Below, piece by piece: positions 6,596 through 55,805 of a stretch of DNA of 64,000 nucleotides. The number at the start of each line of letters is the position of its first letter. Position 1 is the stretch's first letter. Under the pieces are notes generated by a model. The model saw nothing but the letters and a program-made list of their open reading frames with translations, searched no databases and was not told the origin of the DNA. Source of the stretch: Candidatus Endomicrobium embiratermitis (GTDB lineage Bacteria; Elusimicrobiota; Endomicrobiia; Endomicrobiales; Endomicrobiaceae); contig WQYI01000001.1 of NCBI GenBank assembly GCA_009781315.1, forward strand, positions 62,001-126,000, given 5' to 3'. The translations under genes were made by a program, and so were the position numbers.

Positions 6596-6621
6596 TTTTT
6601 TTTATCATATGATAAAAAAAA
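6596..6621. promoter_or_regulatory. Perfect 26-bp AT palindrome at the start of the first giant gene
   Basis: Eight T, then ATCAT, are followed by the exact complement ATGAT and eight A. The centre coincides with a potential ATG at 6609. The hairpin would bury that codon. An AGGGG follows at once and serves the ATG at 6630. Confidence 0.6.
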
Positions 6622-6629
6622 GGGGCCGT

Positions 6630-15600: not shown

Positions 15601-16049
15601 ATTTAAATGCCGGCGCCCAAAAGCGTTTTAATCCTGATATCATTTTGTTGTTTTCGCTGAGCGGTCTCAACGGAATTTTTAAAGACGAAGACAGGCAAAA
15701 AGCGATTGAAGATTTTGAGAAACATTCGTTAAACAGCTTCGGCGGAGTCAAAAACGGAAAAGCTTATCCGTATTATTTATATTATTACTCTTTGTTTATT
15801 CCGTATTTGCAGAAAAAATCTCTGCTTGAAACCCTAAGTTTTTATATTGAAGAAAATCTTTCATTGCCGGAGTTTTTTGCCAGAAAGGACGGATTTGGGG
15901 CAGGCGGTAATTTCAGGGACGCGGTCTCGGCGGCGTATTTTACAATGATGTTTGACGGTTTTGAGGATTTGACCGCTAAAATTAAGATTTCTAAAAAGGA
16001 ATTCGGTAAAATGTTTGAATCGGTAAAGGAAATATTAGTCGCGGCGTAA
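6630..16049 (+). CDS. Giant secreted/membrane multidomain protein (3139 aa), DLH-domain family, function unknown
   Basis: A signal peptide (MFFKTKKIISLFVSLSILTVLFF, then DAAAA) begins at the ATG at 6630, chosen over the ATG at 6609 because AGGGG precedes it and 6609 sits in a palindrome. Residues about 55-480 form a domain shared with the giant gene at 48408: INDLHSNPQVQQ (D68, H70), FTEGAPEG near 95 and MGGFHKSTADLF (H446). This layout resembles the ChaN/EreA/TraB-TIKI type, which is inference. A domain of about 270 aa occurs twice (starting near 598 and 1644), with SESG.G.S and FE-SLLN motifs. Hydrophobic stretches lie near 1151-1211 and 1549-1601. The rest is mostly predicted helix with no recognised catalytic motif; it ends LVAA. 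A strong terminator follows. Function is unknown. Confidence 0.8.
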   Translation: MFFKTKKIISLFVSLSILTVLFFDAAAAKNNPDYSIQKKSQSFEILDNFKVIGSSYKPDTPLVIFINDLHSNPQVQQSIYLALKRLDSDGVLSKIFTEGAPEGIVDVSKLIHSDYQKRKKIIDAFLSSGLASGAEVFAVDSGFKDIYGIENWDIYLENLKTAAETYNSGNGFLSGFKEILYANSGKEIRDAIRKISEIHDLSESGLSKNTDYGFLVRNYGEIDKYLKITDLKKRLNEKAAQKDIYSAFEFLKSNVSYKEFININDKYSKSGKEEFLSDFFLLLKNRFNNVLAERSALTELLYLNELKYASNPHTLIYQISLLKKNIIENIPLSYDKEITALYFFLELLDKYASLSVLEEELNELFKNKEIILKTCFKYLPEKDYAGVAKLLSDENILRYYENNIRRDQIFYENIKKNIVKEKINKKAVFNGKTYSCINVAVMGGFHKSTADLFKEDDISFVSLFPVIKESGKSIYKDIMRLSSSALAPPLLSAGVKNNEISALIDFWASFDDIYSKHAVQSVNNRLSEKNIPFKVFIDKEKQIKIKNIKSGKAFFTSIKTFFAKIFARKANVIKKDLTTRKIVAAEYLKTLDSLNGEMPDVVLICFQRAEDIAFYERILEKMRRETGLSNANFKFIHVSESGTGSSFINISEYINSLKSKNEFQSLKNKKWQDLKICAVNIDGLDTGITGRELPFEFNGRKITSFELSLLNGIRACQSFGQNGGLALMNPESVYIGNMIPEGEITIITSMESYGDILDYEMPWIISGESGVKKMYYKFDFDKIKDKLEKKGILERTRNLENGGFRQFETTTGNILFRFQDEFSYSSFFDKMSDLYGRIYSNKMPGGMPHYVDFIQHILIPLLRIKNGEDVLSYFSKMEIDKAFGEFYEEYSSFFDSSLNEEFKNILERISIKTYMQPYSFYASADKPVLPGDAFSKGLGLSVLGEAGNAKTQSNNDFIHSVESEYARLFREISDTKLQEKYYSEERRESVSLYRRIVLDSEKNAENIEKYLNANPGISQNDVKILENLKNLFVSVEYYALEYIRTLDSFENITILGGYIFPTSSIFERLKIMPFVRIIFGMQANFKKEKEKLRKQAYRLYTAGNAVNHSLYNYNSLLSEIDAYIKGKEYPDAKTYLGIEKQWGDRKAIQRILSLIIAAQSVISTVAIASSGGNAALSGSPLSIVGGLLFSLSTGIGLSIFLHRFMVFIGKRNSFYNAKIKKIFSLEGRYFKNLYYASDESEILKAMLADLSELEYLQEENESFTRVKIVIAVAKKRIEEYLNGKREKTLSDIKEDVSEVLSLISNEESFENLCLSLKTKNAYLPDRHTHEAEPSEFVKKSIEESSREYLEKWKNVLNSENFDADKFEIIRQYALQLVKITAFSENSFNNSKNKEQIIVIIQDFIHLYNDTFAKINGMPEDERQKILLEIKSFEETGKYADYYYKLLCHILSADLLNGYRISEKTPLFFLEKIKILPAVRNIMGINFGIHFSEKGFQKGLKGIIRSGNALIPGLYDEGALTAFSIKYLDSKRKPERFDIGINEFWKSRKMLTRMFPLLFFLGNVIANGLYMQPEKLFISFVSGVGIAIFMHWIPIIYSLIDMKIRKVIKKPKYDKKSVKIPPESLRDEIIGSKAENLRQIPYGKMPDIIFISSDIADENVGDIKRFMSDIIRNGNLRNLNIEYISESGSGDSVIDVFSYMSSEEFASKYPEIAAKGISQINAVIMHIDNSNYENIFDTVDFPISGAITTPFEISLLNAVGLIQNGDEGGNIALADPSYVYLGSLSRSGDVTLLGSDLDYAQIRSQEMPVFIGGEPGEQKPGESIAKKIYKTFDIEKISNIILRSSLENILKNHGEHKGQISAFSGFSSISLDAAKMKYFSEHMRELKEFADNYKGKKFKIDFFSHIMIPYVMLNNGENIDTYFAKMVSGINDRESRRQYYDFFYRIFEIHKKFHGDQDRILDVNIVRPPESLIGRADLENPYYSEIKTFLAELKNKSAPPSQERTATDVLQASTAAANNTANPVSLSTLMTNEISKRLSSKTKTLIFLTPNLNPDYIRHASASQKAGINSICAAIDGESVNSQASEIIINIPVEDSVISAKASISRNPDNSFIVKFSPLYGGVISDKERDIIKSILSGDGEIDMIRKKIFLSRGMLAFIKEAESDRKDLKGIESIITGSLRNNLLSVVSIDGSGAFAQPKLIDDRFYNDETLTKINFCGVYVNKNISGDFHRLSQDNKNALRLSEDTERFNIFTDNILNVGLMSALFSDASFLLSFNRRLTADIDAEEYKLIRLDKNVFYADPRQYISDLFELINGLSLKKSEGIRAEAVQNAALGKVTPSITLNTVSDIAALENLVDTRVINSVIVSNLFAQTENGSVIGNIFNPMLADLRREMAEIGYKDGGFLSILFEEKSDLTAWQSVNPRFYAAGILLDYLKNKSGGAHEFDRFKKSPFAVKGEKSFEYMTALILSGKKIITEDELAEIKFANAQKWDAALEQVKYMEFVVFKQFEEDAKKMKAKGITLIVKTNLMFLKDSVDFNEGFFEISNNGEAAVLPEYGLTPESFYVTQQLEYLRDVLSAGGFLITNIGSYHDKERISAYLRKKLQNGLNGKMILIFEDEETDAYPMAENTYILASKISENQNVILKTGVSDSVSVEELLEAVKNCGSDRVNIPLSFAGDAGMKFDALRADKKNILKSAYANSSQYYASGYKDAAKNGKLAAEAEKITVSDEEDSVYRITAKGILIFNALYSYIKGDDKKEKELLTYLSESGALFALARKHLRDLDAKSPLMRYIDNLELKNRSASPGERHLYNMQLMGFMNGIIHYKYGSEQSLFKAKVSAFADSFYIKNNFFNFIPSSQDTMSLYGLYLGSKDKINFVLKLREYFKHWETIYDKGNNAVALLWLAEQASLFMKDLDAAEKYEFASKIVSYFNNAVDKCAGTTGISAEYDALYLNALLVCRDFNRFAGNHLRISHLDDEIDKEKNAINERYLNAGAQKRFNPDIILLFSLSGLNGIFKDEDRQKAIEDFEKHSLNSFGGVKNGKAYPYYLYYYSLFIPYLQKKSLLETLSFYIEENLSLPEFFARKDGFGAGGNFRDAVSAAYFTMMFDGFEDLTAKIKISKKEFGKMFESVKEILVAA

Positions 16050-36207: not shown

Positions 36208-36262
36208 AGGAATTAAAAATCTTGTTGTCATTAGAATACAATTGAAGTATAAAGGAGATGTT

Positions 36263-39200
36263 ATGGAAACAACACCGGAAAAAGAAACAGAAGAATCATC
36301 TGTCGCGCCAAAATCTTTTAAGACACGTCTTATAATAATTTCGTGTTCCATAGCAGTTATACTTTTTGCAGCCGCGCTTTTTTATAATTTTAAAAAAGAG
36401 CCAGTATCTCCAGACGGGGCTCCGAGGCAAACTTATTCCTTTAACGCTGTAATTAACGCGCCGCCTGTTTCAAGGGTATCTGTGGATAAAGACGGTAATA
36501 CATCTGTTGAAAAGCCCGGTAATGTGACGATCCAGTTTAAAACTTCGAATTATGGAGCTCCCTCTCCGATAAATAAAGAATATGCTGCTGATCAGAATAA
36601 ACTGGACGCCCTTATTACCATTACGCCTGAACTGAGAGGTAAATGGAGCGTTCGCGAGTTTGGCGGTTACAGTACCACTTTAGATTTTACCCCTGAGAAA
36701 GAATGGACGGCCGCGCAAAAATATAAAATAAAACTGGATAAAGCGCTATTTAATTCAAATATAGAAATAGATAAACTTGACTTTGAATTTACAACCGCGC
36801 GTAATGATATTTTTATAGAAAACCTTGCGGTTTTCCCGTCACAACAAAAACGTCAGTTGGCGCTTAATGCGATCGTGCAATTTAACTATCCCGTTGACCG
36901 TGAGGCAGCAAAAAACGGCGTTAACCTTACAGTAGATAAAAAAACCGTTTCCCCGAAGATCAGTTTTGACCAGTACAACAGAGTAATGTTCCTGAATTAT
37001 GAGCCTGTCGCGCTTAAGTCGAAACCGCAGAATGTTGATCTTAGTATAAAGTTTGATTCCATGAGCGCTCAAAGATCTATGCAGATAGATTCTTCCGACA
37101 ATTTTTTTAATATAAAAAGAGTTGAGATCATACCTCCGTCTAAAATAGGCGCAAACTACAGCTTAAGCGTTGAGTCCACTGACATTCTTAACCCGGAAAC
37201 TCTTTTAAGCAATAATAAAATTAAAGCATGGGCTTTGCCATACGAAAACGGCAAGAACTGGCAAAATGTAAACATGGAAGATATGCGCGCTGCGCTTAAA
37301 GACGCCAAGGCGCTTAACCTTGAAGCAGTGCCCGGAAATACTGTCAATCCTTTCTTTAAAATAACTAACGATATAAACAGCACTGCCCGCGCGTATTATG
37401 TATATGTTTTGTTCAATCAGGGTATGGAGTCTGAAGGCGGTTTTTCAACCGATGAGAAAAAAGAATTTGTGGTGCCTATGGGAATACTGCCCAAAAGGCT
37501 GCAGATACTCGGCTCAGGCTCTATAATACCTTTAAGTTCTGAGCATATACTTAATTTTGTTTCGCAGGGGTTAAGTTCTGTTGACATAAAAGTATCCAGA
37601 ATTTTGCCCGGAAGAGTTAATCATCTTGTGTCACAGACCAGCGGAGATATCAGCAATCCGTATTTCGGCTCGAAAAGCAGATATTATGACTATGATGATG
37701 AGGAATACTACGACAATTTTACCACAAGCCAGTTTAATGAAAGCGACATAGCGAGTATTTTCAGCAAAAAGATCTCTCTTACCGATACGGGTATTAAGCC
37801 TAACTTTTTTACGCTTGATCTAAAAGAATATTTTAAACGCGGCGATTTAGGCATATTTTTGGTAGACGCAACTTCTTCAGGCGGCGTAAGCCAAAAAAGA
37901 TTAATTACCATCACAGACATCGGGCTGATATATAAAAAGGAAGCGGACGGAAAACTTAAACTGTTTGCACTTTCCATAGTTGACCAGCTGCCTCTTTACG
38001 GCGCCAAAGTCGAGCTTATATCGCGCAACGGCACGGTGCTTAAAACCGAGTATACGGGCAGCGACGGTATTGCGGTCTTTGAAGTGCCTTCGTATTTAGG
38101 CGCTGAAAGAAAACCTGTCGCGTTTGTGGTAAGTAAAGGCTCGGACTACGCGTTCATGCCCGTTGATAGAAGCGAGAGAGAGGTAAGTTTCTCGCGTTTT
38201 GACACAGCCGGAGCGGGCTACTTCCAAAATAGCAGCCTTGACGCTTTTATTTTTACCGACCGCGGCATATACCGCCCCGGCGATCCTGTTAATTTCGCAA
38301 TTATCTCAAAGAACCGGAACTGGACGTCCACAGCCGGTCTGCCTATAAAAGTCAGGGTAACGGACGCGCGCGACAAGAACGTGTTCGAAAAAACGGTTTC
38401 TTTAACTGCGGAAGGATTTAAAGATTTCAGCTTACAAACAACAGCTTCTTCGCCCACCGGCGAATACAAAATCAGCGTTTACGACGAAGGCGGCCAGTAT
38501 ATTTCAGGCGAAACGTTTAAGGTGGAAGAGTTTAAAGAAGATAAAATTAAAATAAACACAAGCATAGAAGGCGCTTCAAGAAAAGGCTGGCAGCCGGTTA
38601 CGGGCCTTACCGGGAAAGTAACGGTTAAGAACCTGTTCGGTACGCCTGCTGTCGGGAATACGGTAAATATGAAAATGCAGCTGCGCCCGGCAAAGTTTAA
38701 GTTCGCGCAGTATAAAGATTATTCGTTCTCCGACGTTATACGCAGTAAAGCGAACCTACGTTTTGAAGAGGTGACGTTTGGCGATGCGACTACCTCGGAA
38801 GACGGTTCGGTCACAACGGAATTAGACTTAAGCAGCTTTGAAAAGGGTACCTACAGCCTTAGTTTCTGGGCGGAAGCTTTTGAACAGGAAAGCGGGCACA
38901 GCGTTACGGCGATGTCTACAAGGCTTGTTTCACCCAACAAATATATTGTGGGATATCAAACGGAGGCGGACTTAAGCTATATTCCGCATAATTCCAAAAA
39001 AACCGTAAACTTCATAGCCATAGACCCTGACCTTAACAAAATAGAACCCGGTCCGTTCAAAATAAGAATTCTTAACCAGCAGTATGTGTCGGTGCCTGTA
39101 AGGAACAGAAATTCTTTCCGTTATCAGTCCGTATTGAGCGAGTCCCTTTTCAGCGTTGAAAATTTTAATATTAAAAAAGACGGTTCCGTTTTTACCATAC

Positions 39201-41935
39201 CCACTAAAAATCCCGGACAGTACGCGCTTGAGATGGTAAATAAAGAAGATGAAGTCGTTATGCGTCTTGAATTTTTCGTTTCGGGGAACGCTAATGTGGC
39301 CTACGACCTTGAGCGCAACGTTGAGCTTAGGCTTAATCTTGAAAAAGACACCATTGAACAGGGCGGCATATTGAAACTTAACATAACCGCGCCTTTTACC
39401 GGCACCGGGCTTATAACTATAGAAAAAGATAAAGTGTATGCGTACAAATGGTTTAAAACAACAACTAACAGTTCCGAGCAAAGTATAAAAGTGCCGGAAG
39501 AACTTACCGGCGGCGCGTATGTCAATGTTTCGTTCTTAAGAAGCATGTATTCCAAAGAACTTCTCGCAAGCCCTCTCAGTTACGCAGTGGCTCACTTTAA
39601 TATAAAGCCTGTGAAACATATGTCAGCCATCACTCTTGGAACCCCGGAACTTGTCAAGCCCGGCGACAGGATTGATATTTCTTACAAAACGTCAGTGCCG
39701 TCAAAAATTATAATCTACGGCGTTAACGAAGGTATTTTGCAGGTGGCAAAATATAAACTGCCCAGCCCCATAGCCCATTTTTTCAGAAAAAGCGCCTTAG
39801 GCGTAATAACATACCAGATGTGGGACCTCATTATGCCCGATAACAGACTTATAAAAGAAGTTTACGGAATAGGCGGCGACTACGAAGCCGCCAACGCTCT
39901 TTTGGAAGCCGGCTTAAATCCGTTTGCAAGAAAAACGGAAAAACCCGTGGTCTTTTGGTCAGGTATTTTGGAGGCTTCGCAGAACGCGAGCGTTTACTCT
40001 TATGACGTGCCTGATTATTTTAACGGGCAAATCCGTATTATGGCGGTCGCCGCGTCGCAAAGTACGGTTTCAAGCGCGGACAAAGAAGTATTGGTGCGAG
40101 CGCCTTTAATACTGTCCGCGGGAGGACCTGTAGCCGCCGCGCCCGGAGACACGTTTAACATAGGTTTAAGGGTATCAAATAATAAAGAGGGTACTAAAGA
40201 CGGCAAAGTCACCGTTAATATAAACGTATCCGACAATCTCTCGGTAATAGGCGCAAAAAAGCAAACCGTGAACGTGCCTTACGGCCAGGAAAAAACCGTT
40301 TATTTTAAAGTGCAGTCCGGAAATACGCTTGGCAACGCGACAATATCTTTTGACGCCGAGCTTGCAAATCCTAAAGAAACCGCTTCCCGTAAGATCACTC
40401 TAAGCGTGCGTCCTGCAAGCGCGATGCGTGTGACGATAAATAACGGTACAATAAAAGGCAGTAAAAAAGTAAAAGATTTTGACTCAAGAGAACTCTACGA
40501 CCAGTTTTCAAAAAATACAATTGCTCTCTCAGCCAACCCGCTTGTGGTTGCCGGGGGGCTTGGAGCATTCCTTGAAAAATTCCCGCACGGCTGCACGGAA
40601 CAGATCACAAGCCAGATATTTCCGACTATAGTTTTCTATAAAGCCTCGGGTAACGAAGGCGGCGCAAAAGAAGCTCTTACGCGCGTGATCGAAAAGCTTA
40701 AAGTCAGACAGCTGTCAAACGGCGGGTTTTCATTATGGGACGGCGGAAGTTATGTCAGCGAATATCCTTCTTTATACGCTTTCCACATGCTTACTGAAGC
40801 AGCTGAAATGGGCTACAATGTTCCCAAAGACATAAAGGACAGAGCTTTGTCATGGGCCAAAGAATATGCAGAACGTAATTCTTTCAACGGAAATGACATA
40901 AGCAACACAGCTTACGCGCATTACCTTATAGCCAAAAACGGCGTTGTTATGACTAACGCTCTTATGAACTTTGAAGAGTGGCTAAACAAAAATGACCCCA
41001 GATGGAAAGAAAGCGTTACCGGAGTTTACGTTGCCGCGGCTTACAAACTTCTTAAAAATGACGCAAAGGCTTTAAGCATAATAAAAGAGTACAAAGCCGA
41101 AGCTTCCGCTTACAGATATTATTATGATTATGACTCCAGCTTCTCAAGGAACGCCAAGTATATTTATATTATAGGCCTCTACTTTCCGGAACTTATGAAA
41201 GAACAAAAAGCTTCTGAAATAATAAAGAGCCTTCTGAGTGACATTAATGCCAAGCGTTATAATACGATGACTTCGGCGGCAGGGATGCTGGCTCTTTACT
41301 CTTATTCAAAAATAAACAACGTTAAAGACAGCGATATTGAAGTAAGCGCGAACGGACAAAAGTTAACCTTTGCCAAAAACAGCCTTGGAATGCTTGAGGC
41401 CTCGTTCGGACACGGCGTTAAAGAGTTTGACATTAAAGTAAAGGACAGTTCCGCAAATATCTATTATGTCATTACGCAGCAGGGCTTTGACAAAGGCGAA
41501 GTAAAACCGGCGGCAAACGGTATGCGTATAGCGCGTACTTATTACATATCGGGCAATGAGATGGACAGAGCGTTGGACAGAGTGCGTACTAAAGGCATAT
41601 TGGGAGACGAGATGGACGTTACCATAGAAACGCGTTCTTTAGACAGAACAATAACCAACGTGGCTATTACGGATATTCTGCCCGGCGGTTTTACCGTAGT
41701 GCCCGGTTCAATAAATTCCTCCGGAGGCGTTACGCTTGATTACTTTGACATAAGGGAAGACAGGCTTCTGTTATACGGCACCGTGAATTCTTATGACGGA
41801 AAATTTAGTTATAAAGTTAAATTTACCTCTGAGGGGACATTCAAAGTACCTGCCGTAACCGCCGCGCCGTTATATGATACGTCGATAAGCGCGGCCGGCG
41901 CGGAATCTACTTTCGTGATAGAAAGCAGAAATTAG
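36263..41935 (+). CDS. yfhM: Bacterial alpha-2-macroglobulin with thioester motif
   Basis: The 1890-aa protein starts at the ATG at 36263 (AAAGGAGATG before it). A membrane anchor (LIIISCSIAVILFAAALFY) near residues 20-40 replaces the usual lipoprotein signal. Macroglobulin-type beta domains follow, including TDRGIYRPGDPVNFAIISKNRNW. The thioester motif GCTEQ (Cys at about 1444) is intact; such proteins trap attacking proteases covalently in the periplasm. The alpha-alpha toroid (SNGGFSLWDGG) follows. It is paired with pbpC downstream, as in many Gram-negatives. Codon use differs from most neighbours: more CGT/CGC arginine codons. Confidence 0.95.
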   Translation: METTPEKETEESSVAPKSFKTRLIIISCSIAVILFAAALFYNFKKEPVSPDGAPRQTYSFNAVINAPPVSRVSVDKDGNTSVEKPGNVTIQFKTSNYGAPSPINKEYAADQNKLDALITITPELRGKWSVREFGGYSTTLDFTPEKEWTAAQKYKIKLDKALFNSNIEIDKLDFEFTTARNDIFIENLAVFPSQQKRQLALNAIVQFNYPVDREAAKNGVNLTVDKKTVSPKISFDQYNRVMFLNYEPVALKSKPQNVDLSIKFDSMSAQRSMQIDSSDNFFNIKRVEIIPPSKIGANYSLSVESTDILNPETLLSNNKIKAWALPYENGKNWQNVNMEDMRAALKDAKALNLEAVPGNTVNPFFKITNDINSTARAYYVYVLFNQGMESEGGFSTDEKKEFVVPMGILPKRLQILGSGSIIPLSSEHILNFVSQGLSSVDIKVSRILPGRVNHLVSQTSGDISNPYFGSKSRYYDYDDEEYYDNFTTSQFNESDIASIFSKKISLTDTGIKPNFFTLDLKEYFKRGDLGIFLVDATSSGGVSQKRLITITDIGLIYKKEADGKLKLFALSIVDQLPLYGAKVELISRNGTVLKTEYTGSDGIAVFEVPSYLGAERKPVAFVVSKGSDYAFMPVDRSEREVSFSRFDTAGAGYFQNSSLDAFIFTDRGIYRPGDPVNFAIISKNRNWTSTAGLPIKVRVTDARDKNVFEKTVSLTAEGFKDFSLQTTASSPTGEYKISVYDEGGQYISGETFKVEEFKEDKIKINTSIEGASRKGWQPVTGLTGKVTVKNLFGTPAVGNTVNMKMQLRPAKFKFAQYKDYSFSDVIRSKANLRFEEVTFGDATTSEDGSVTTELDLSSFEKGTYSLSFWAEAFEQESGHSVTAMSTRLVSPNKYIVGYQTEADLSYIPHNSKKTVNFIAIDPDLNKIEPGPFKIRILNQQYVSVPVRNRNSFRYQSVLSESLFSVENFNIKKDGSVFTIPTKNPGQYALEMVNKEDEVVMRLEFFVSGNANVAYDLERNVELRLNLEKDTIEQGGILKLNITAPFTGTGLITIEKDKVYAYKWFKTTTNSSEQSIKVPEELTGGAYVNVSFLRSMYSKELLASPLSYAVAHFNIKPVKHMSAITLGTPELVKPGDRIDISYKTSVPSKIIIYGVNEGILQVAKYKLPSPIAHFFRKSALGVITYQMWDLIMPDNRLIKEVYGIGGDYEAANALLEAGLNPFARKTEKPVVFWSGILEASQNASVYSYDVPDYFNGQIRIMAVAASQSTVSSADKEVLVRAPLILSAGGPVAAAPGDTFNIGLRVSNNKEGTKDGKVTVNINVSDNLSVIGAKKQTVNVPYGQEKTVYFKVQSGNTLGNATISFDAELANPKETASRKITLSVRPASAMRVTINNGTIKGSKKVKDFDSRELYDQFSKNTIALSANPLVVAGGLGAFLEKFPHGCTEQITSQIFPTIVFYKASGNEGGAKEALTRVIEKLKVRQLSNGGFSLWDGGSYVSEYPSLYAFHMLTEAAEMGYNVPKDIKDRALSWAKEYAERNSFNGNDISNTAYAHYLIAKNGVVMTNALMNFEEWLNKNDPRWKESVTGVYVAAAYKLLKNDAKALSIIKEYKAEASAYRYYYDYDSSFSRNAKYIYIIGLYFPELMKEQKASEIIKSLLSDINAKRYNTMTSAAGMLALYSYSKINNVKDSDIEVSANGQKLTFAKNSLGMLEASFGHGVKEFDIKVKDSSANIYYVITQQGFDKGEVKPAANGMRIARTYYISGNEMDRALDRVRTKGILGDEMDVTIETRSLDRTITNVAITDILPGGFTVVPGSINSSGGVTLDYFDIREDRLLLYGTVNSYDGKFSYKVKFTSEGTFKVPAVTAAPLYDTSISAAGAESTFVIESRN

Positions 41936-41964
41936 AGCCTGCGTAATATATGTTAACAGGCTCT
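41934..41964. repeat. AGAGCCTG hairpin between alpha-2-macroglobulin and pbpC
   Basis: AGAGCCTG and its complement CAGGCTCT form an 8-bp stem around a 15-base loop. It starts in the stop codon and ends four bases before the ATG at 41968. The same sequence, closed up to a perfect palindrome, occurs at 60082-60105. Confidence 0.8.
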
Positions 41965-41967
41965 AAA

Positions 41968-44307
41968 ATGTTCAAACCTTCAGGCAAAAAATATTTAAGG
42001 CTCGCCGCCATACTTTTGGCGGTGTGCCTTATTTTTGTTGCGGTTCGTATTTGGCCGAGAGAGAGTCTGCTTCATAAATATTCTTTTTCAAGATCTTTCT
42101 TTTCAAGCAGCGGCGAGCTGTTGCGCTTTAACGTTTCGCACGATGACAAGTACAGAACGTTTATCGCGCTTAAAGAAATACCGCGGAATTTTCAAGAGGC
42201 GGTTTTGCTTTACGAAGACAGATATTTTTATTATCACCCGGGTGTAAATCCCGTCTCGCTTATTAAAGGCTTTAACGAAACATTCATAAAAAAAAGCCGC
42301 CGTCAGGGTGCGTCTACGATCACAATGCAGACGGCGCGGATTATTTATAATTTAAACACCAAAACTTTAACCGGCAAACTTAAACAGATTTTTTTAAGCC
42401 TGTGGCTTGAAATGCGCTACTCTAAGAAAGATATTTTAGAAGCCTATCTAAACCTCGCGCCTTACGGCTACAATATAGAAGGCGCGCCTGCGGCCGCGCT
42501 TACTTATTTTAAAAAACGCATAGCCGATATAAATCTTATACAGTCTTTAACGCTGGCTGTGATACCGCAAAATCCCAATCAAAGGCGCCCTGACACGCAA
42601 GACGGTTACGAAAATATGAAAGGTCCGCGCGACGCGCTTTATAAAGAGTGGATAAAAAAACACCCCGAAGATAAAGACAAAGAACATTTTATAACCATGC
42701 CGCTTGAAGTGTATGGTCCTGGGCACAGGCCGTTTTACGCGCCGCACCTTGTAAATTATCTTGATTTCAGAAGCAACACAAGCGAAGTGTTTTCTTCTAT
42801 AGACCTGCCGCTGCAAAAACTTTATGAAGAGAAAATAACCAAATATTTAAACCATAACGCCTCAAAAGGCATAAATAACGCTTCTGTCGTGCTGCTTGAT
42901 ACAAGAACTATGCAGGCGCGCGTTTTAGTGGGATCTGCCGATTTTAATAATGATGCTATTTCAGGGCAGATCAACGGCGTTACGTCTAAAAGAATGGCAG
43001 GTTCCGTGCTTAAAAGTTTTATCTATGCCATAGCTCTTGATAAAGGGATCATACATCCGATGACGCTTATGAAAGATACGCCGCAGTATTTCGGAATTTT
43101 TGCGCCCGAAAATTCAGACAGGCAGTTCGCGGGTCCCGTGTTTGCAAAAGACGCCCTTATAAATAGCCGTAATATTCCGGCTATGGAACTTGCGCTTAAA
43201 ATAGGCATTGATGAGTTTTTGGAGTTTTTGCGCCGCGGCGGTGTAAGCCAGCTAAAAACAGCCGACTACTATGGCATAAGCGCTGCTGTCGGCAGTCTTG
43301 ATATAACGCCGCTTGAATGTGCGCGTTTATATGCTGCCGTTGCAAACTATGGAACTCTCAGAGAGATAAGTTTTACAAGAGAGCCTTCTGCTTCTTCCGG
43401 CATTCAGATTCTTACGCCTGAAGCATCTTTTATACTTTTTGATATGCTTTCTTCAAATCCGCCGCCAAAGCCTTCACTTAAAATATATGACAGTTACAAA
43501 ACATTAGTAGAAGTAGCATGGAAGACCGGCACTTCATATTCTTTCAAAGATGCATGGGCCGCGGGAATTTTCGGTGATTACGTGCTTGTTGTGTGGGTGG
43601 GAAATTTTTCAGGCCAGGGCAATCCGCATTTCTGGGGAAGGACAGCCGCGGGAGAATTGTTTTTTGAACTTGCCGCCCTTACGGTCAGAAATAAACCTGA
43701 AGAGATTTTTTTGCAGATGCTGCCGGAAGGACTTAACGTAAAAAAGGTGGAGGTATGCGCGACCTCGGGCGATTTACCGGGCAGGTTCAGCCCTAAAACG
43801 GTTAAGGATTTTTTTATTCCTGGCGTGTCTCCGATAAAAACGTCTGACGTGTACAGGCAGGTGATTATAGATAAAAAAACAGGTCTTCGTACAAGCAGGT
43901 ATAAAGAGGGCGAAACATATTATAAAGTTTATGAGTTCTGGCCTAAAGAAATTTTGCTGTTATTTGAACAGGCCGGCATTAAAAAACAATCCATTCCGCG
44001 TTACATGCCAGGCTGCGACATTGAAGAAACATCTCTCAGCGGTTTTGCGCCGGAGATTGTTTTACCCGTAAAAGACGTAATTTATTACGTGGACGCCGCT
44101 AACCCTTCGCGTAAAATAGCGCTTAAAGCAAGCGCCGACGCGGATGCGCGCAGCCTCTATTGGTTTATAGACGGTATTTTTGTCGGCAGCTCGAAAAACG
44201 GCGAGAGTTTATTTGTTCAAATGCAGCAGGGAACTCACAAGATCCAAGTGTCAGACGACTTGGGCCGCCACTCATATTCATATATCACTGTGACGCTTGA
44301 AAATTAG
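41968..44307 (+). CDS. pbpC: Penicillin-binding protein 1C
   Basis: The protein of about 779 aa (785 if started at 41950, inside the hairpin) has a membrane anchor near residues 12-32. The glycosyltransferase domain shows LYEDRYFYYHPGVNP with the catalytic Glu, and RRQGASTITMQTARI. The transpeptidase shows the SxxK form AGSVLKSF, SRN and KTG in AWKTGTS. The C-terminal BiPBP_C domain (near 700-779) is typical of PBP1C. It polymerises and crosslinks peptidoglycan, and its pairing with alpha-2-macroglobulin suggests envelope repair after breach. Arginine codons are mostly CGN, unlike the AGA/AGG of gap and tkt. Confidence 0.93.
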   Translation: MFKPSGKKYLRLAAILLAVCLIFVAVRIWPRESLLHKYSFSRSFFSSSGELLRFNVSHDDKYRTFIALKEIPRNFQEAVLLYEDRYFYYHPGVNPVSLIKGFNETFIKKSRRQGASTITMQTARIIYNLNTKTLTGKLKQIFLSLWLEMRYSKKDILEAYLNLAPYGYNIEGAPAAALTYFKKRIADINLIQSLTLAVIPQNPNQRRPDTQDGYENMKGPRDALYKEWIKKHPEDKDKEHFITMPLEVYGPGHRPFYAPHLVNYLDFRSNTSEVFSSIDLPLQKLYEEKITKYLNHNASKGINNASVVLLDTRTMQARVLVGSADFNNDAISGQINGVTSKRMAGSVLKSFIYAIALDKGIIHPMTLMKDTPQYFGIFAPENSDRQFAGPVFAKDALINSRNIPAMELALKIGIDEFLEFLRRGGVSQLKTADYYGISAAVGSLDITPLECARLYAAVANYGTLREISFTREPSASSGIQILTPEASFILFDMLSSNPPPKPSLKIYDSYKTLVEVAWKTGTSYSFKDAWAAGIFGDYVLVVWVGNFSGQGNPHFWGRTAAGELFFELAALTVRNKPEEIFLQMLPEGLNVKKVEVCATSGDLPGRFSPKTVKDFFIPGVSPIKTSDVYRQVIIDKKTGLRTSRYKEGETYYKVYEFWPKEILLLFEQAGIKKQSIPRYMPGCDIEETSLSGFAPEIVLPVKDVIYYVDAANPSRKIALKASADADARSLYWFIDGIFVGSSKNGESLFVQMQQGTHKIQVSDDLGRHSYSYITVTLEN

Positions 44308-48407: not shown

Positions 48408-51400
48408 ATGATTAAAAAAAGTATTTCAATACTATTAGCCATAGCATTGATTGAGACTGCCGCTTTAGGCAGTTTGCCTCAATCTGTTTTTACGGCGGAT
48501 TCGGAAAATCCGTTATCGTTTTCAGACTTTGGCGTCGTAACCGGCGGAAAAGATTACGGTTCGCCCGGGAAAATAATAATAATACAGGATTTGCACTGTC
48601 ATCCGCAGGCTCAAAAAAACATAAGTTCCATAATAGATATTCTTGACGACAAATTTAAGATAAATAATATTTATCTCGAAGGAGCGCACGGTGATGTTGA
48701 TATTGGCTGGCTTACGGCGATAAAAGATAAAAAACTTTCGGATACTATTGCGCAAAGTTTATTGGAAAACGGGAAATTGACAGGCGCTGAACATTACGCG
48801 TATAAACATAATGCCGGATTGAAACTGAAAGGCATAGAAGATAAAGAAATACATATCGCCAACCTAAAAAGACTTTCTTTGATAACGGAATCCCAGCCGG
48901 AAATAACGGAAATATTATCAAATCTTTCCGTTTTTCTTAATAAAACTCAAAAACAAAATTACGGCGTTTTAAACCGTAAATTGGCTTTGCTTTATGATAA
49001 ACACCGGCTAGGTAAGATTAATTCAATGGATTATTATAAAAAACTTTTAAGATACGCGCGAAATACAAAAGACAATAAAAGCATAGTTAAAGATTTTAAC
49101 GTAAATATTGACGATTATCCCGAGATAGTAAATTTTATAAAGTCGTCCAAAAATTTAAAGAAAATAAACGTAAAGGCAGTTCAAAATCAACTTTCCCAGG
49201 TTTTAAATGAATTGAAAGCCAATGTCCCCTACGGCATGTATTCCGAATTTATTAACAAAACAAATTCGTTAAACAACACTGACGCGTTAGTAAAAGAAAT
49301 TGTGAAATTCAAAGACGGCGGATTTATAGATTTAAGAAAATATAAAGAACTTGATAATTTTATCAACGCTCAAAATTTAGCGTCCGGCGTTAACCCTATA
49401 AAACTTATTGACGCCGAAAGAAAACTTTTAAAGTCGCTGCAGATAAACTTTTCTTCAAGCGAAAAGGAAATGCTGACTGTAATACTTTCTGAATTATTCG
49501 ATCATTTTTGCGGTTATTATCAGGCAAAACTCAGCGTGGACGATTATAAATATATAAAAACATTCGGTATAGAAAATTATAAACATTATTGGGAACAAAC
49601 TACGGGTTTTGAAGATATATCATTGCTCAGTAAATACGACTCATTATTAAAAGAATATTATGAAATTAATATTAACAGAGATAAAATCTTCGCAAAACAC
49701 ATATTTAACGGAAGTAAGCCTGACGGGATAAATTTAATAGTTTGCGGCGGATTTCATACCTGCGGACTTATGGAAGAGTTAGAGGAAAAAGGCATAAGTT
49801 ATTTAGTAATTACCCCAAAAATTACTCAAGACGTTAAAATTGCCGATAAAATATATAAAGAAATGTTATTAAGCGGTTTTAAGACAGATTCTTTTGCATT
49901 GGCCTTGCAGATAATATCGCAGGGGGGAAGCCAGAAACAACTTGTCCAAATTTTAGAAACTATTTTGAGCGAGGAGCTAAAAAGAAATTCTAAATTGAAT
50001 GTGGAACAATTTATAAACGATACGGTAAATAAAATATGCGAAGTTGACGAAACTGAAATTAACAAACATATTGCAATGCCTTATAACCGTCCCGTAAACA
50101 ACGGGGTAAGAATGAACGGAGACGGCAGCATAGAGATAGAAATATATTTTGAAAATACCGGTAAAAAAGAAATTGTTGAAATAAATTCCGGCAAAAACAG
50201 CGACGCGTATATTCCCTATGCGTCGATTTACGGCATGAGATATGCAAAAAGCGCTCCGTTTTGGGAATGGTTATACATCTTGCCGTTTTCAATCCCGATA
50301 ATGCAAAGTAAAAAATTTAAGAGTTTTCTTAAAAGAACGTTTTTACCTGGCTTGGAAATAGACGATATAAACAAAGGCATACGGTATAATAAGAATCTTA
50401 AAATTTCCGATTCTATAGCGAGTTTATTGTTTATTGCGAGTTTTTTACTGCCTCCGGCTATTCCTTTCGCAATAATCTTATACTCGGTATTTAAATCGTT
50501 GTCTTTTGCTTCTTTACATATGAATAAGTTTAATAATAAAAGCGACGGAAAATACATGTCCGTTTTTTTGTCGTCGTTTATATCGTTGCTTCCTCTTAAT
50601 CTTATGTTAATAATATTAGGACCGGCAGGGCTCTTATTTGCCTTTACCGTCGGAATACCGCTGCAGATACTGCTGCATGAAATTTATAACGCATGGCTGG
50701 CGCCGGCAATAGCTGCTTCTTTGCATAGAAATTACGTATACAGAGACGACGAGCTTATTAAATATTTTGTTGATTTCAGAGAAGACATACGCAAGTCCGA
50801 TTTTAATAAAAGCGTATCTTCAAGAAGAATAATGAAGTTTTATACTATGCTCAAACTGTTTAATCTTAACAGAAATAAACAGACAATTAACGAAATATTG
50901 CCGGTTCTGTTTCAAATATCAAAATACTTGTCTCAAAAGAAGAAATCCGGAAATATAGCTCTTCGTATAAACGCGTCGATATCTTCGCAGCTTGAGAATA
51001 TGGATGAAAGCATTGCAAAATATATCGGCTCGGCGGAAAAAAAAGACGACTCATTTTGGTTTTTGTTTATATTGTCGCAAAAAAATGAAAAACACGTTCT
51101 TTCTAAAATAATTGAAAATAATAATCTTGACATAAGATACAGGCTTTATGCGTATTCTCTTTTGAGAAGTTCAAAATTCGATTTGAACGAAAGCAATAAA
51201 AAAGAGCTTACCGACAAAGCCGGACAACTTATACGTAATTTTGAATGGAAAAAAGATTTAGGCCACATATATAATGACACTATATTTTACAATGAAGAAT
51301 TACAGGCTTATGTTACGGCTGTTTATCTGATAATGGTTGCGGATCATCCCTCGTTTATAGGTAGAGAAAATCCGGCTATATTTAAAGCCATAACGGAAGC

Positions 51401-54400
51401 AAGGTTTGACGCCAAATACCGCAATGCGGACTCTTCTCTTTCTTTCGGAAAAGATTATTTTATGCAGGAAAGAAACCAGGCAATATTCCCCGAAATTATT
51501 GCCCATGAGCTTGCGCATATCCATCTTTTTAAATTAAAATTTTTACCGATAAAAAAAATCGCCTATTTATTATTTTTCCTGCCTTATAATAATAAATTGG
51601 TGCGAAAGATCGTGCTTAATCTTCAAAAATCCATGATTCACGAGTTGTATGCCGATGTTGCCGGATATTTGCTGGCTTCTTCTACCGGAAGAAACCCTGA
51701 AAAATTTTATGATTCCGGAATAGCTCCCTATCTGGGGAAGAATATCTCGGATTTTTCTGAAGAACCGGAAGAACATGCCGGAGCGAGAGTTCAGTTCAAC
51801 CAGCTTATAAATATGCTTAGACATGACCGCCGTGAAATCGATTATTATAAATTTTCCGAAATTTTTAACAGAAGGCTCAGAAGAAATATAAAAAAATCGG
51901 ATTTATATTTCAAAGAATTTTTCTTTGAGCTTTCGGAATCATACCTTACGCGCGAAGGATATAGGGCTGTAGGCGAGCCTGAAGATTTGAAGAATAACGA
52001 TATTATTACCACGCAGGAACTATTGGATTCTTTTCGCGCGTCGGTATTCGGCGACGAATATGCCGGAATTGCTCCGTTTTGGGAATGGGTTTATATGCTT
52101 CCCGGGGTGAGTTTCTTTGCGGAAAGCAGATTGTTTTCAAAAATTCTGTCTAAAACTTTATTGAAAGATAAAAGCGAAGAAGAAATAAATAATACGCTGA
52201 GAACAAACAGAATTGCAAAAACTTTAGATATAGCCGGAAGCGTTGTTTTAGGGGTTTGCGCTTTAAGCGGCTTGGGAATTGCCGGGCTTGCCGCGTTTAT
52301 GCTCACGAGAGCTATTATTTTCTCTTCGGTCCATAAAGGCTATGACTGGAAAGCGCATTGGAAAGATAAGGCTTTGATAAGCGTTTTGCTGTTTTTTGTT
52401 CCGTTTGCCGTTGTGTTTGCCTCTTTGCAGTTTTTCAGCCTTAATTTTATTCCCGTTATTGCCGCAGGATTCTCTTTAAATATTCTTTTACATTCTGTTT
52501 ATAATAAATTTATAGCTCCTGCCTTGTCTTTGAAAAAAGCTTCCGTATTTAAAAATCTATCCCAGGAAGAAAAACAGCAATTTGTCGCGGATATTATAAA
52601 ATTAAAATTGTCGTCTAAATTAAATATCGGCGTCGAAAATATTAATATTAACGCGGTAGATAATGATAGATACTATAAAAAGGAAACGTACGCGGAGTTT
52701 TTTTATAACGGCGTAAAGTTATATAAAGATGAAAGCGGCAAATTTATTTCGGATATTCCGAAAACGTTTTTGCTGTCTCTTTACGGACTTAGCGGCTCCG
52801 GACGCGAAACATATATTGAAACTTTCGTTAAAAATCTTATTGATATTTACAATATAGAACAGCAGGAAAGCAGCCATAAAAAAATAAGTGATTTTATAAA
52901 CGGTCTTGACGGCGGTATCGCGGATTTTGCAGTAACCGCATTGCTGGAGTTTGCGGCTTCTTCCGCAGTTACCGTTCCGTCGTTTTATCTTGTTGAAAAC
53001 ATGTCGAGAGAAATTTATACTTCCTCTTTCAATTTATCGCCCGTGAATTTCGACATGATGTATTTTATAAGCAAAATAGAAGAACAAATTAAAGAATTTG
53101 ACGACGATATAAAAAATTTAATACTTTTCCAGTGCATAGAATTTACCGGTTATGTTTTACAGAGCCAGACTTGGCTTTCTCCGGCGCTTTTTGACGGGCA
53201 ATATGGCTATATGCAGAATATTGTAAATGAAAGTTATGAACGAGAGCTGTCCAATACCAAGAGTTTTGACGGGGTTTTTAAAATAATGCTGTCTAATCAT
53301 AAAGAAGTACGTATGATAAAAACAAAAGAAGCGGCTCTTTTCGAGTATATAACAATAAAAAACAACGAAAGAGGTTCTTCGTTGATAATTCCCGACAGTA
53401 TCGTTTCTAATTTCAAAAATATCGATATTGCTTCTCTTGAAGATAAGGTTTATTCTTCTTATGATTTGGAAGAGAGAACCGCTTCGGTTATAAGGCAGAA
53501 AAGTTCACGCGGTATAACTGACAGATATCTCATCATAGACTGTTCCTCAACGGAAAATATCGCAGCAATTGCCGCGAAAATTGACGAATATAATAAAAGC
53601 GTTCCCGAAAAACTCAAAATCAAAGAAGTTATGCTTTATAATGCGGATTTAAAAGATTACGTTCTGTCGTATAAAGACTTTACTTTTTCAACGGCGTATG
53701 TATTCGATTTTTCAAAATTTGTATTTGATGATAAAAATAAAGAGAAGATATTAAGTTTATTCACGAATATTCCCGCGGTTTATTCCGGTTCGGATGATTT
53801 TGTTTTGAATTACGGCAGCAGACTTGATAATTTCACTAAACATTATTTATATATGCTTATGGATATAGATTTAATTCGTCACGGAACTCATCACGTAGAT
53901 ATGAAAATCGCAAAACGCATTGACAATGCCCCTGTGCAAATGAAAACCGCAAAGGAATATAAAGATTTATATGATAAGCTTATAGTTTCGCTTAAGAAAT
54001 ATAATTATTTTGACGGCGCCAAACAAATATTTTATAAATATGTGACGGAAACCGCTTTACGAAACCGCGGCAAACTTGACGCTTTTATCGGCGGCAATGA
54101 CATAACCGCGTCCGTTTTTAACGGTATTATTGACGAATACAGAACTCTTTTAAATTTTATGTTTTATTTTGAGTGGTCTGACCGTAAAGACATGTTTGAC
54201 TTTGTCTCGGAAGCGGAGAAAGACGCTTTGTCTGAAAAATTCAATGAATTTAGCTTAAAGCCTGAAAATTCTTACGCAATCCCGTTTGAGCAGGACTCAA
54301 TTTTAGTCGCAAGCGGAATGTCTGCGGTAAAAACAATAGCGGCTATGTTTGTGTCGGAAAATATTTCAAAAATTGCTTTCGGGAAAAATGTTTACTATGA

Positions 54401-55805
54401 GAACGCCGATATGTTTAATTCAATAAAAGCTTTCGCAAATCCCGTCAGGTTTTACGAATATAATACGCAGGAAACATTAAATCTTGACGCTGAAGCGATA
54501 TTTTTGGATTTAATTTCAAACTCCGTGCGTAAAGTAAATTTCGATACCGAAGATATTCCCGTTGCGGACATAAAGCGCATTATTTCCGAATTATCGAAAA
54601 AAGAATATAAAACGCCTTTTTATGTATGCATAGACAACAGCATGTATCCGTCTTTTCAGTTTGCCGATATTTTAAACGGAATAGACTTGCCGGATAATTT
54701 TTACATAATTGTCTACGGAAGTATGCAGAAAATGCATCAGAGGGGACTTGAAATAGTAACTTCGGGTTTTCTGACTTTAATATCCAACGGGCATAATCAA
54801 AATACAATTTTAAATAAATTGAAAGACGCTGTTAAGCTTACTTCTTCCGATATCGATACTTTCAGATATATCGTATTAAAAGAATTTATCGAAAATAATA
54901 ATCTTGATCGGCATTCAAGAAAATTAAACGACAATGCCGCCGCCGCGGCTCGGGCGTTAAAGTCGATATCTTCTCTGTTTGGAGACGCTTTTGAGGTATT
55001 GCATCCGTCATTATATTCCGGAGAACAAAGGGAAATATGGGAGAAAAACAGAAGTCCCGGCATTCCTTTTATTTTCATAAGGGATTTATCGTTTAAAAAA
55101 AACATAAGCGGTTTTCTTGAAACCCTTTATCCGATACTTATAAGGGCTTCTTTCAACCCGATGACAAGAGACAGTTACGGCTTTAATTCCCTTACTACGG
55201 TGCATTATGGCTTTAGTACGATTAGAATTAATGTTGGCATTAATGATGAATCGCGATTGCGGGAAATGCTTAATATTTTTTCCGAAGCAGCTTATGATTA
55301 TTTTATGCAAACGATATACAAAGATAGCCCCGCGAATGAAATGATAGAAAGAATATATGCGTATGCGCAAGATGTTTGGAGAAGCGAGAAATCGGATGAA
55401 TTAGCTTATAATTATCTTCTATCTTTAAAAGAGACGCATGCAATGTCTGAAATAAATGTTTTAAAAACTTTTAGTATATGCAATAAATTCGGAAAGCCTG
55501 TGCCTGAAATTATAAAATCAAAAGCTGCGGATATATTGAGTAAAGAACTTTCGCAATTTTTAAATGATGACGAACGCGCGGTTTATATTGAAGCTTTGGC
55601 ATATTCCGACAAGCCGAGAGGGGAAACTATTAAAGAATTAACCGATCTTTTTGTAAATGCTAATTCTTCGGACAGAGCTGCGGCGGCAAACGCTTTGACA
55701 ACAGTATTAGCCCGTCAGCCGGTTAGTTATAGATCCGGCAGTTTGGATCTTAATAATGCGGGCAGTTCTGGAAAAATGATTGCCAGTATGTTAGCCGCGG
55801 CATAA
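48408..55805 (+). CDS. Giant multidomain membrane/secreted protein (2465 aa) with DLH, HELAH and PLP-fold-like regions
   Basis: A signal-like start (SISILLAIALIETAALGSL) precedes a domain shared with the giant gene at 6630: IQDLHCHPQAQ (D61, H63), IYLEGAHG near 88 and CGGFHTCG (H450). Residues about 616-790 and 1222-1400 are two copies of a membrane module that begins PFWEW and has several helices. Between them are HELAH (1033-1037) and HELYADVAGY (E1079, D1083), an M48-like zinc-protease pattern. Residues about 1960-2290 resemble Cys/Met-metabolism PLP enzymes: ASGMSAVKTIA, YGSMQKMHQRG (K2108), RINVGIND. The end is helical (MIASMLAAA). The combined function is unknown; the domain names are inference from motifs. 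Confidence 0.8.
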   Translation: MIKKSISILLAIALIETAALGSLPQSVFTADSENPLSFSDFGVVTGGKDYGSPGKIIIIQDLHCHPQAQKNISSIIDILDDKFKINNIYLEGAHGDVDIGWLTAIKDKKLSDTIAQSLLENGKLTGAEHYAYKHNAGLKLKGIEDKEIHIANLKRLSLITESQPEITEILSNLSVFLNKTQKQNYGVLNRKLALLYDKHRLGKINSMDYYKKLLRYARNTKDNKSIVKDFNVNIDDYPEIVNFIKSSKNLKKINVKAVQNQLSQVLNELKANVPYGMYSEFINKTNSLNNTDALVKEIVKFKDGGFIDLRKYKELDNFINAQNLASGVNPIKLIDAERKLLKSLQINFSSSEKEMLTVILSELFDHFCGYYQAKLSVDDYKYIKTFGIENYKHYWEQTTGFEDISLLSKYDSLLKEYYEININRDKIFAKHIFNGSKPDGINLIVCGGFHTCGLMEELEEKGISYLVITPKITQDVKIADKIYKEMLLSGFKTDSFALALQIISQGGSQKQLVQILETILSEELKRNSKLNVEQFINDTVNKICEVDETEINKHIAMPYNRPVNNGVRMNGDGSIEIEIYFENTGKKEIVEINSGKNSDAYIPYASIYGMRYAKSAPFWEWLYILPFSIPIMQSKKFKSFLKRTFLPGLEIDDINKGIRYNKNLKISDSIASLLFIASFLLPPAIPFAIILYSVFKSLSFASLHMNKFNNKSDGKYMSVFLSSFISLLPLNLMLIILGPAGLLFAFTVGIPLQILLHEIYNAWLAPAIAASLHRNYVYRDDELIKYFVDFREDIRKSDFNKSVSSRRIMKFYTMLKLFNLNRNKQTINEILPVLFQISKYLSQKKKSGNIALRINASISSQLENMDESIAKYIGSAEKKDDSFWFLFILSQKNEKHVLSKIIENNNLDIRYRLYAYSLLRSSKFDLNESNKKELTDKAGQLIRNFEWKKDLGHIYNDTIFYNEELQAYVTAVYLIMVADHPSFIGRENPAIFKAITEARFDAKYRNADSSLSFGKDYFMQERNQAIFPEIIAHELAHIHLFKLKFLPIKKIAYLLFFLPYNNKLVRKIVLNLQKSMIHELYADVAGYLLASSTGRNPEKFYDSGIAPYLGKNISDFSEEPEEHAGARVQFNQLINMLRHDRREIDYYKFSEIFNRRLRRNIKKSDLYFKEFFFELSESYLTREGYRAVGEPEDLKNNDIITTQELLDSFRASVFGDEYAGIAPFWEWVYMLPGVSFFAESRLFSKILSKTLLKDKSEEEINNTLRTNRIAKTLDIAGSVVLGVCALSGLGIAGLAAFMLTRAIIFSSVHKGYDWKAHWKDKALISVLLFFVPFAVVFASLQFFSLNFIPVIAAGFSLNILLHSVYNKFIAPALSLKKASVFKNLSQEEKQQFVADIIKLKLSSKLNIGVENININAVDNDRYYKKETYAEFFYNGVKLYKDESGKFISDIPKTFLLSLYGLSGSGRETYIETFVKNLIDIYNIEQQESSHKKISDFINGLDGGIADFAVTALLEFAASSAVTVPSFYLVENMSREIYTSSFNLSPVNFDMMYFISKIEEQIKEFDDDIKNLILFQCIEFTGYVLQSQTWLSPALFDGQYGYMQNIVNESYERELSNTKSFDGVFKIMLSNHKEVRMIKTKEAALFEYITIKNNERGSSLIIPDSIVSNFKNIDIASLEDKVYSSYDLEERTASVIRQKSSRGITDRYLIIDCSSTENIAAIAAKIDEYNKSVPEKLKIKEVMLYNADLKDYVLSYKDFTFSTAYVFDFSKFVFDDKNKEKILSLFTNIPAVYSGSDDFVLNYGSRLDNFTKHYLYMLMDIDLIRHGTHHVDMKIAKRIDNAPVQMKTAKEYKDLYDKLIVSLKKYNYFDGAKQIFYKYVTETALRNRGKLDAFIGGNDITASVFNGIIDEYRTLLNFMFYFEWSDRKDMFDFVSEAEKDALSEKFNEFSLKPENSYAIPFEQDSILVASGMSAVKTIAAMFVSENISKIAFGKNVYYENADMFNSIKAFANPVRFYEYNTQETLNLDAEAIFLDLISNSVRKVNFDTEDIPVADIKRIISELSKKEYKTPFYVCIDNSMYPSFQFADILNGIDLPDNFYIIVYGSMQKMHQRGLEIVTSGFLTLISNGHNQNTILNKLKDAVKLTSSDIDTFRYIVLKEFIENNNLDRHSRKLNDNAAAAARALKSISSLFGDAFEVLHPSLYSGEQREIWEKNRSPGIPFIFIRDLSFKKNISGFLETLYPILIRASFNPMTRDSYGFNSLTTVHYGFSTIRINVGINDESRLREMLNIFSEAAYDYFMQTIYKDSPANEMIERIYAYAQDVWRSEKSDELAYNYLLSLKETHAMSEINVLKTFSICNKFGKPVPEIIKSKAADILSKELSQFLNDDERAVYIEALAYSDKPRGETIKELTDLFVNANSSDRAAAANALTTVLARQPVSYRSGSLDLNNAGSSGKMIASMLAAA

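Follow-up and report, generated by a model that had tools for sequence, protein, structure and literature searches.

A divergent PLP-enzyme domain of the cystathionine gamma-synthase class at the end of a giant, apparently exported protein of Candidatus Endomicrobium

The giant gene and its parts

The window, by which we mean the whole stretch of DNA that was analysed (64,000 nucleotides), contains a giant open reading frame that ends in a domain resembling PLP-dependent enzymes (Table 1). It is adjoined, here and at the locus in genome G001, by genes that on inspection appear to be rsmG-like and mnmG-like. Orthologous frames of 2473 and 2469 codons run without interruption in two other genomes (G001 and G023), and the giant frame is therefore regarded as a real gene. 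Close relatives of the window genome (G000) have records under the names Candidatus Endomicrobium labiotermitis and Ca. E. macrotermitis. The one search that reached beyond Elusimicrobiota, a scan of genome contigs for close relatives, returned Candidatus Endomicrobium records only, and the giant may also occur in other phyla.

Table 1. Positions in the window of the giant gene, its domains and its main residues
Feature	Position	Strand	Residues	Basis or remark
Giant open reading frame with C-terminal PLP domain	48408..55805	+	2465 aa / 2465 codons	Orthologues
Sec-type signal-peptide-like N terminus	48408..48482	+	1-25	Hydropathy and inspection
N-terminal domain with invariant DLH, EG and GGFH	48525..49832	+	~40-475	Weakly ChaN/Tiki-superfamily-like
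Hydrophobic block 1	50412..50684	+	669-759	Hydropathy
HELAH...HELYAD, gluzincin-like metallopeptidase motif	51504..51656	+	1033-1083	Sequence
Hydrophobic block 2	52221..52502	+	1272-1365	Repeat of block 1 (APFWEW...); hydropathy and inspection
Module upstream of the PLP domain	53151..53957	+	~1582-1850	Present in relatives
YER of the upstream module	53235..53243	+	1610-1612	Invariant, 9/9
PLP fold-type-I gamma-family-like domain	54204..55307	+	1933-2300	Profile and fold matches
S1969-G1970-M1971	54312..54320	+	1969-1971	SGMA phosphate-loop equivalent; Ser invariant
Y1996	54393..54395	+	1996	Ring-stacking Tyr equivalent, 10/10
N2038	54519..54521	+	2038	Equivalent of Asn in E-T-P-x-N-P, 10/10
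D2076	54633..54635	+	2076	Equivalent of pyridine-nitrogen Asp (V-D-N-T), 10/10
S2105-x-x-K2108	54720..54731	+	2105-2108	Schiff-base lysine candidate, 10/10
R2273	55224..55226	+	2273	Equivalent of substrate-carboxylate Arg (R-x-S-V-G), 9/9
C-terminal tail ending SMLAAA	55770..55802	+		Common to other giants of the class

To judge from its sequence, the protein is apparently exported, and its signal-peptide-like N terminus, MIKKSISILLAIALIETAALGS, has no RR on inspection. In two of the ten copies the N-terminal domain gives a weak match to PF04187 (ChaN/Tiki; best E 0.011), and a profile of it found no significant match in the PDB. This same domain, recognised by DLH...EG...GGFH, marks a family of giants spread through the phylum: of 336 Elusimicrobiota genomes, 68 have it at the head of giant open reading frames, the longest of which has 11,814 codons. 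A second example lies in the window itself at 6609-8400, at the start of the frame at 6609-16049. The region around HELAH...HELYAD could not be assigned to a family with significance (SprT-like, E 0.07). At the place of hydrophobic block 1, the copy from genome G222 (L031:2451-2999) has a weak match to CPBP/Rce1-like membrane proteases (E 0.0037), and the next frame on that contig (L031:5062-7122) contains a stretch similar, on visual inspection, to an ECF sigma factor.

The C-terminal tail is shared among the giants, roughly as [hydrophobic]-L-x-A-A, with SMLAAA, EILVAA, ILSAA, SLMSAA, AIIGAA and LLSAG as examples and ILKAS and ILTSS as variants. It was seen at window positions 55770-55802, at the end of the frame at 6609-16049 and in L016, L018-L021, L064, L065, L068, L071, L073 and L075, and is missing from three giants of more distant families; it is possible that it serves as a sorting or processing signal. 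One of the tail carriers, a giant of ~3120 codons (L021:3382-12735), has a weak RelA/SpoT match (E 0.0019), which would place a further enzyme domain of cytoplasmic type on a giant of the exported type. Elsewhere in the window (36242-44307), a frame of 1897 aa followed by a penicillin-binding-protein-1C-like frame of 785 aa resembles, by eye, an alpha-2-macroglobulin/pbpC pair.

The fold of the C-terminal domain

Residues ~1933-2300 make up a PLP domain of fold type I, and its class is that of cystathionine gamma-synthase and methionine gamma-lyase (the gamma class). An earlier note on this DNA had proposed such a domain from six motifs, and the significant profile and fold matches described below bear this out. 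All six lie in the giant frame in the order and with the numbering that the note gave: ASGMSA starts at residue 1968, VCIDNSMYPS at 2073, YGSMQKMHQRGLEIVTSG, which contains K2108, at 2103, RHSRKLNDNAAAAARAL at 2168, GIPFIFI at 2218 and RINVGIND at 2273. The extent it assigned to the domain (54200-55320) is nearly identical to that of the structural match.

When the window segment alone was compared with PF01053 it scored 18.4-18.7 bits (E 6.8e-4 at 18.7 bits), which is below the curated cut-off of 27 bits, and we therefore term the domain a divergent relative of PF01053 rather than a member. A Pfam run on the whole 2465 aa missed the domain, a PDB search with the single sequence gave no useful match, and searches of NCBIfam and PHROGs returned nothing significant. 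PF01053 is matched by six of the nine relatives (best E 2.2e-7), and a profile built from these nine matched only PLP enzymes of the gamma type in the PDB at E values up to 0.05, with 4oc9 first (E 1.3e-4) and then 9iz5, 1n8p and 5ijg. Comparison by hhalign of ten copies of the domain with 24 bona fide gamma-family enzymes from Elusimicrobiota gave a probability of 87.9 and an E value of 3.2e-6 over 272 columns. The best E value reached when the columns were shuffled 60 times was 0.059, and the profile when reversed gave 0.18.

The structural comparison leads to the same class. An AlphaFold model of residues 1855-2311 has a pLDDT of 79.7 and a pTM of 0.81, with low confidence in the loop after K2108. 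Aligned with VIA-align, it matched 7swh_B (Z 27.1, 313 residues aligned, 3.7 A) and 2nmp_D (Z 26.5, 305 residues aligned, 3.0 A), and all 50 matches listed were gamma-family structures, with Z scores of 25-27; the best Foldseek E value for the domain model was 1.5e-11. Identity to the known enzymes is 12-18%. A larger model of 957 residues (1375-2331; pLDDT 58) gives the same fold, less confidently.

Active-site residues and a proposed function

The domain is rare, occurring in five of 341 Elusimicrobiota genomes, and conservation was assessed across ten copies from five species, one of them (G222) from another family of Elusimicrobiota. These copies diverge down to 21% identity, and S1969, Y1996, N2038, D2076, S2105, K2108 and H2110 are invariant in all ten, with R2273 kept in each of the nine copies long enough to include it. 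A joint alignment with the 24 gamma-family enzymes places S1969, Y1996, N2038, D2054, D2076, P2081, R2273 and G2277 in columns that those enzymes conserve as well. The note's candidate for the Schiff-base lysine, K2108, is likewise upheld as the conserved lysine of S-x-x-K in every homologue, three residues after the invariant Ser as in S-x-T-K; MAFFT and hhalign place it one column off the catalytic Lys owing to the choice of a one-residue gap.

The suggestion that several catalytic residues are altered holds in part. The phosphate-binding Thr of S-x-T-K is replaced by Gln or His (S-M-Q-K / S-L-Q-K / S-L-H-K), the GHxD after the Lys is lost, some paralogues have lost the Gly-Met of the SGM loop (SATSA), and the canonical Y-x-R...NPT phosphate clamp, which gamma-family enzymes lend to the neighbouring subunit, was not found at its usual place in the domain. 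H2110, at K+2, is missing from the canonical enzymes that were compared. However, the residues that would hold PLP and the substrate carboxylate are invariant across this deep divergence, which disfavours the note's idea that the domain has become non-enzymatic. The pattern of conservation is more easily reconciled with an enzyme altered in its details than with a dead fold and, since the cofactor-binding residues are kept in all ten relatives, we consider that the domain is probably a working enzyme and not a dead remnant.

The reading that we prefer, and think fairly likely, is that of a divergent gamma-class PLP enzyme domain which binds PLP through K2108 and acts on an amino acid on the exported side of the giant. 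PLP would most likely be held by K2108, as a Schiff base, together with D2076, N2038, Y1996 and S1969/S2105, whilst R2273 may grip the amino-acid substrate, and the activity would most likely be that of a lyase or a side-chain-exchanging enzyme for an amino acid. Hydropathy and inspection, including the signal-peptide-like start, place the domain putatively on the exported side. More tentatively, the peptidase-like parts of the same giant might feed amino acids to the PLP domain. The window genome encodes PdxJ (E 4e-98), so the cell may make PLP itself; a search of this genome for PdxS did not find it.

It could instead be that the fold binds PLP as a sensor or a structural part, forming a Schiff base without turnover. 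The altered Thr and GHxD, the invariant H2110 and the placement of the domain in a giant exported-type protein are all compatible with such a role, but an invariant substrate-carboxylate Arg would be needless in a pure cofactor binder, although an amino-acid sensor would need it, and we judge this explanation unlikely.

A further consideration is the side of the membrane on which an active domain would lie. Gamma-family PLP enzymes are normally cytoplasmic, and ahead of the domain lie hydrophobic blocks in which the number of helices is uncertain, so that the giant could be anchored rather than exported, or the blocks could return the chain to the inside. Against this, L018b, a paralogue, begins with a signal-like N terminus, which follows a GTG that overlaps the stop of the preceding gene, and has no further hydrophobic segment; its PLP domain should therefore cross the membrane after the N terminus. 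In addition, the two blocks of the window protein are repeats, and with equal helix numbers they would leave the PLP and N-terminal domains on the same side. A cytoplasm-facing domain thus seems to us improbable.

There is little to recommend the view that the domain is a dead enzyme fold kept as a scaffold only; the very low identity to known enzymes and the several changed motifs would suit it, but one would expect the Lys, Asp, Asn, Tyr and Ser to have been lost from a dead fold, and they are invariant in all ten copies. That the motifs resemble those of PLP enzymes by chance, which the earlier note also thought hard to accept, is scarcely credible: nothing favours it beyond the score of the window copy alone under the Pfam cut-off, and the PF01053 matches of the relatives, the hhalign comparison with its shuffles and the fold matches agree in contradicting it.

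Pairing, the upstream module and comparison with known systems

PLP fold-type-I enzymes function as dimers. Adjacent PLP giants occur in G000 and G001, which are two species, with stop/start overlaps (TAGTG, TAATG) around 8914 for L018a/L018b and around 8753 for L019a/L019b, and these overlaps suggest coupled translation. Genome G003 has a single frame with two PLP domains (L016:2-6985; their lysine motifs lie at residues 420 and 1594). Catalysis in the giants may need a dimer, and such dimers might form between tandem domains, between translationally coupled neighbours or as homodimers, though we put this forward more weakly than the assignment of the cofactor.

The module directly upstream may also be relevant. 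Its invariant YER is reminiscent, as a motif, of the Y-x-R clamp of gamma-family enzymes, and the order of its secondary-structure elements in the 957-residue model (pLDDT 58) fits PLP enzymes. The spacings from YER to the positions that appear equivalent by eye are 30, 102, 135 and 160, compared with 28-29, 102, 127 and 151-152 in canonical enzymes. Comparison of the module with PLP enzymes by hhalign gave E values of 0.06-0.6 and a score of 20.2, close to the highest that shuffling produced (18.9); a profile comparison for homology to the PLP fold was not significant (E 0.08), the module's profile had no PLP match in the PDB, and a self-comparison gave no match. One may speculate that these ~260 residues are a dead PLP half which has lost the lysine and kept the Y-x-R, forming a built-in pseudo-heterodimer outside the cell, a doubtful though possible arrangement which we offer as a hypothesis because the profile comparison does not support homology. 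If this were true, then one half would supply the clamp and the other half the chemistry.

PF01053 covers cystathionine gamma-synthase, cystathionine gamma-/beta-lyase, methionine gamma-lyase and O-acetylhomoserine sulfhydrylase. The domain is like these enzymes in its fold, the order of its motifs, the SGM loop, the stacking Tyr, the Asn of E-x-P-x-N, the pyridine Asp, the Lys of S-x-x-K and the Arg of R-x-x-x-G. It differs from them in having Gln/His for Thr, no GHxD, a new invariant His at K+2 and no Y-x-R..NPT at the usual place, and in sitting behind a conserved module in an exported-type protein of 1575-2500 aa. The alignment of a CndF gamma-lyase (8zif, 8zij) with the 957-residue model spans 353-371 residues and takes in part of the upstream module; these matches rank 30 and 47, there is no sequence match to CndF, and a literature search on CndF returned nothing on the gamma-lyase, so we treat this likeness as a lead only.

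PvdN of Pseudomonas acts in pyoverdine modification and is exported by the Tat pathway, whereas inspection of the giants finds no twin-arginine motif. The two are alike in being PLP enzymes outside the cytoplasm, a role and a location which for the giants are predicted. PvdN is a periplasmic PLP enzyme (PMC6411801), and with this precedent PLP chemistry outside the cytoplasm is in itself no novelty. The earlier note's claim that a PLP fold on an exported giant would be novel therefore stands for the giant multi-domain architecture, which is unusual, but not for the export of a PLP enzyme; the novelty is one of architecture and probable location, the fold itself being known.

Huge and poorly characterised proteins are reported to be abundant in Elusimicrobiota (PMC11573180), and the giant proteins of Omnitrophota are likewise poorly understood (PMC10066038); the portions of these two papers that we consulted mention neither a PLP domain nor the DLH...GGFH N-terminal domain. 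The giants of both groups are abundant and almost without assigned function, and a domain whose cofactor can be identified and whose active site can be named, found here among relatives of termite-gut symbionts, may offer a direct handle on whether such proteins carry out chemistry outside the cell.
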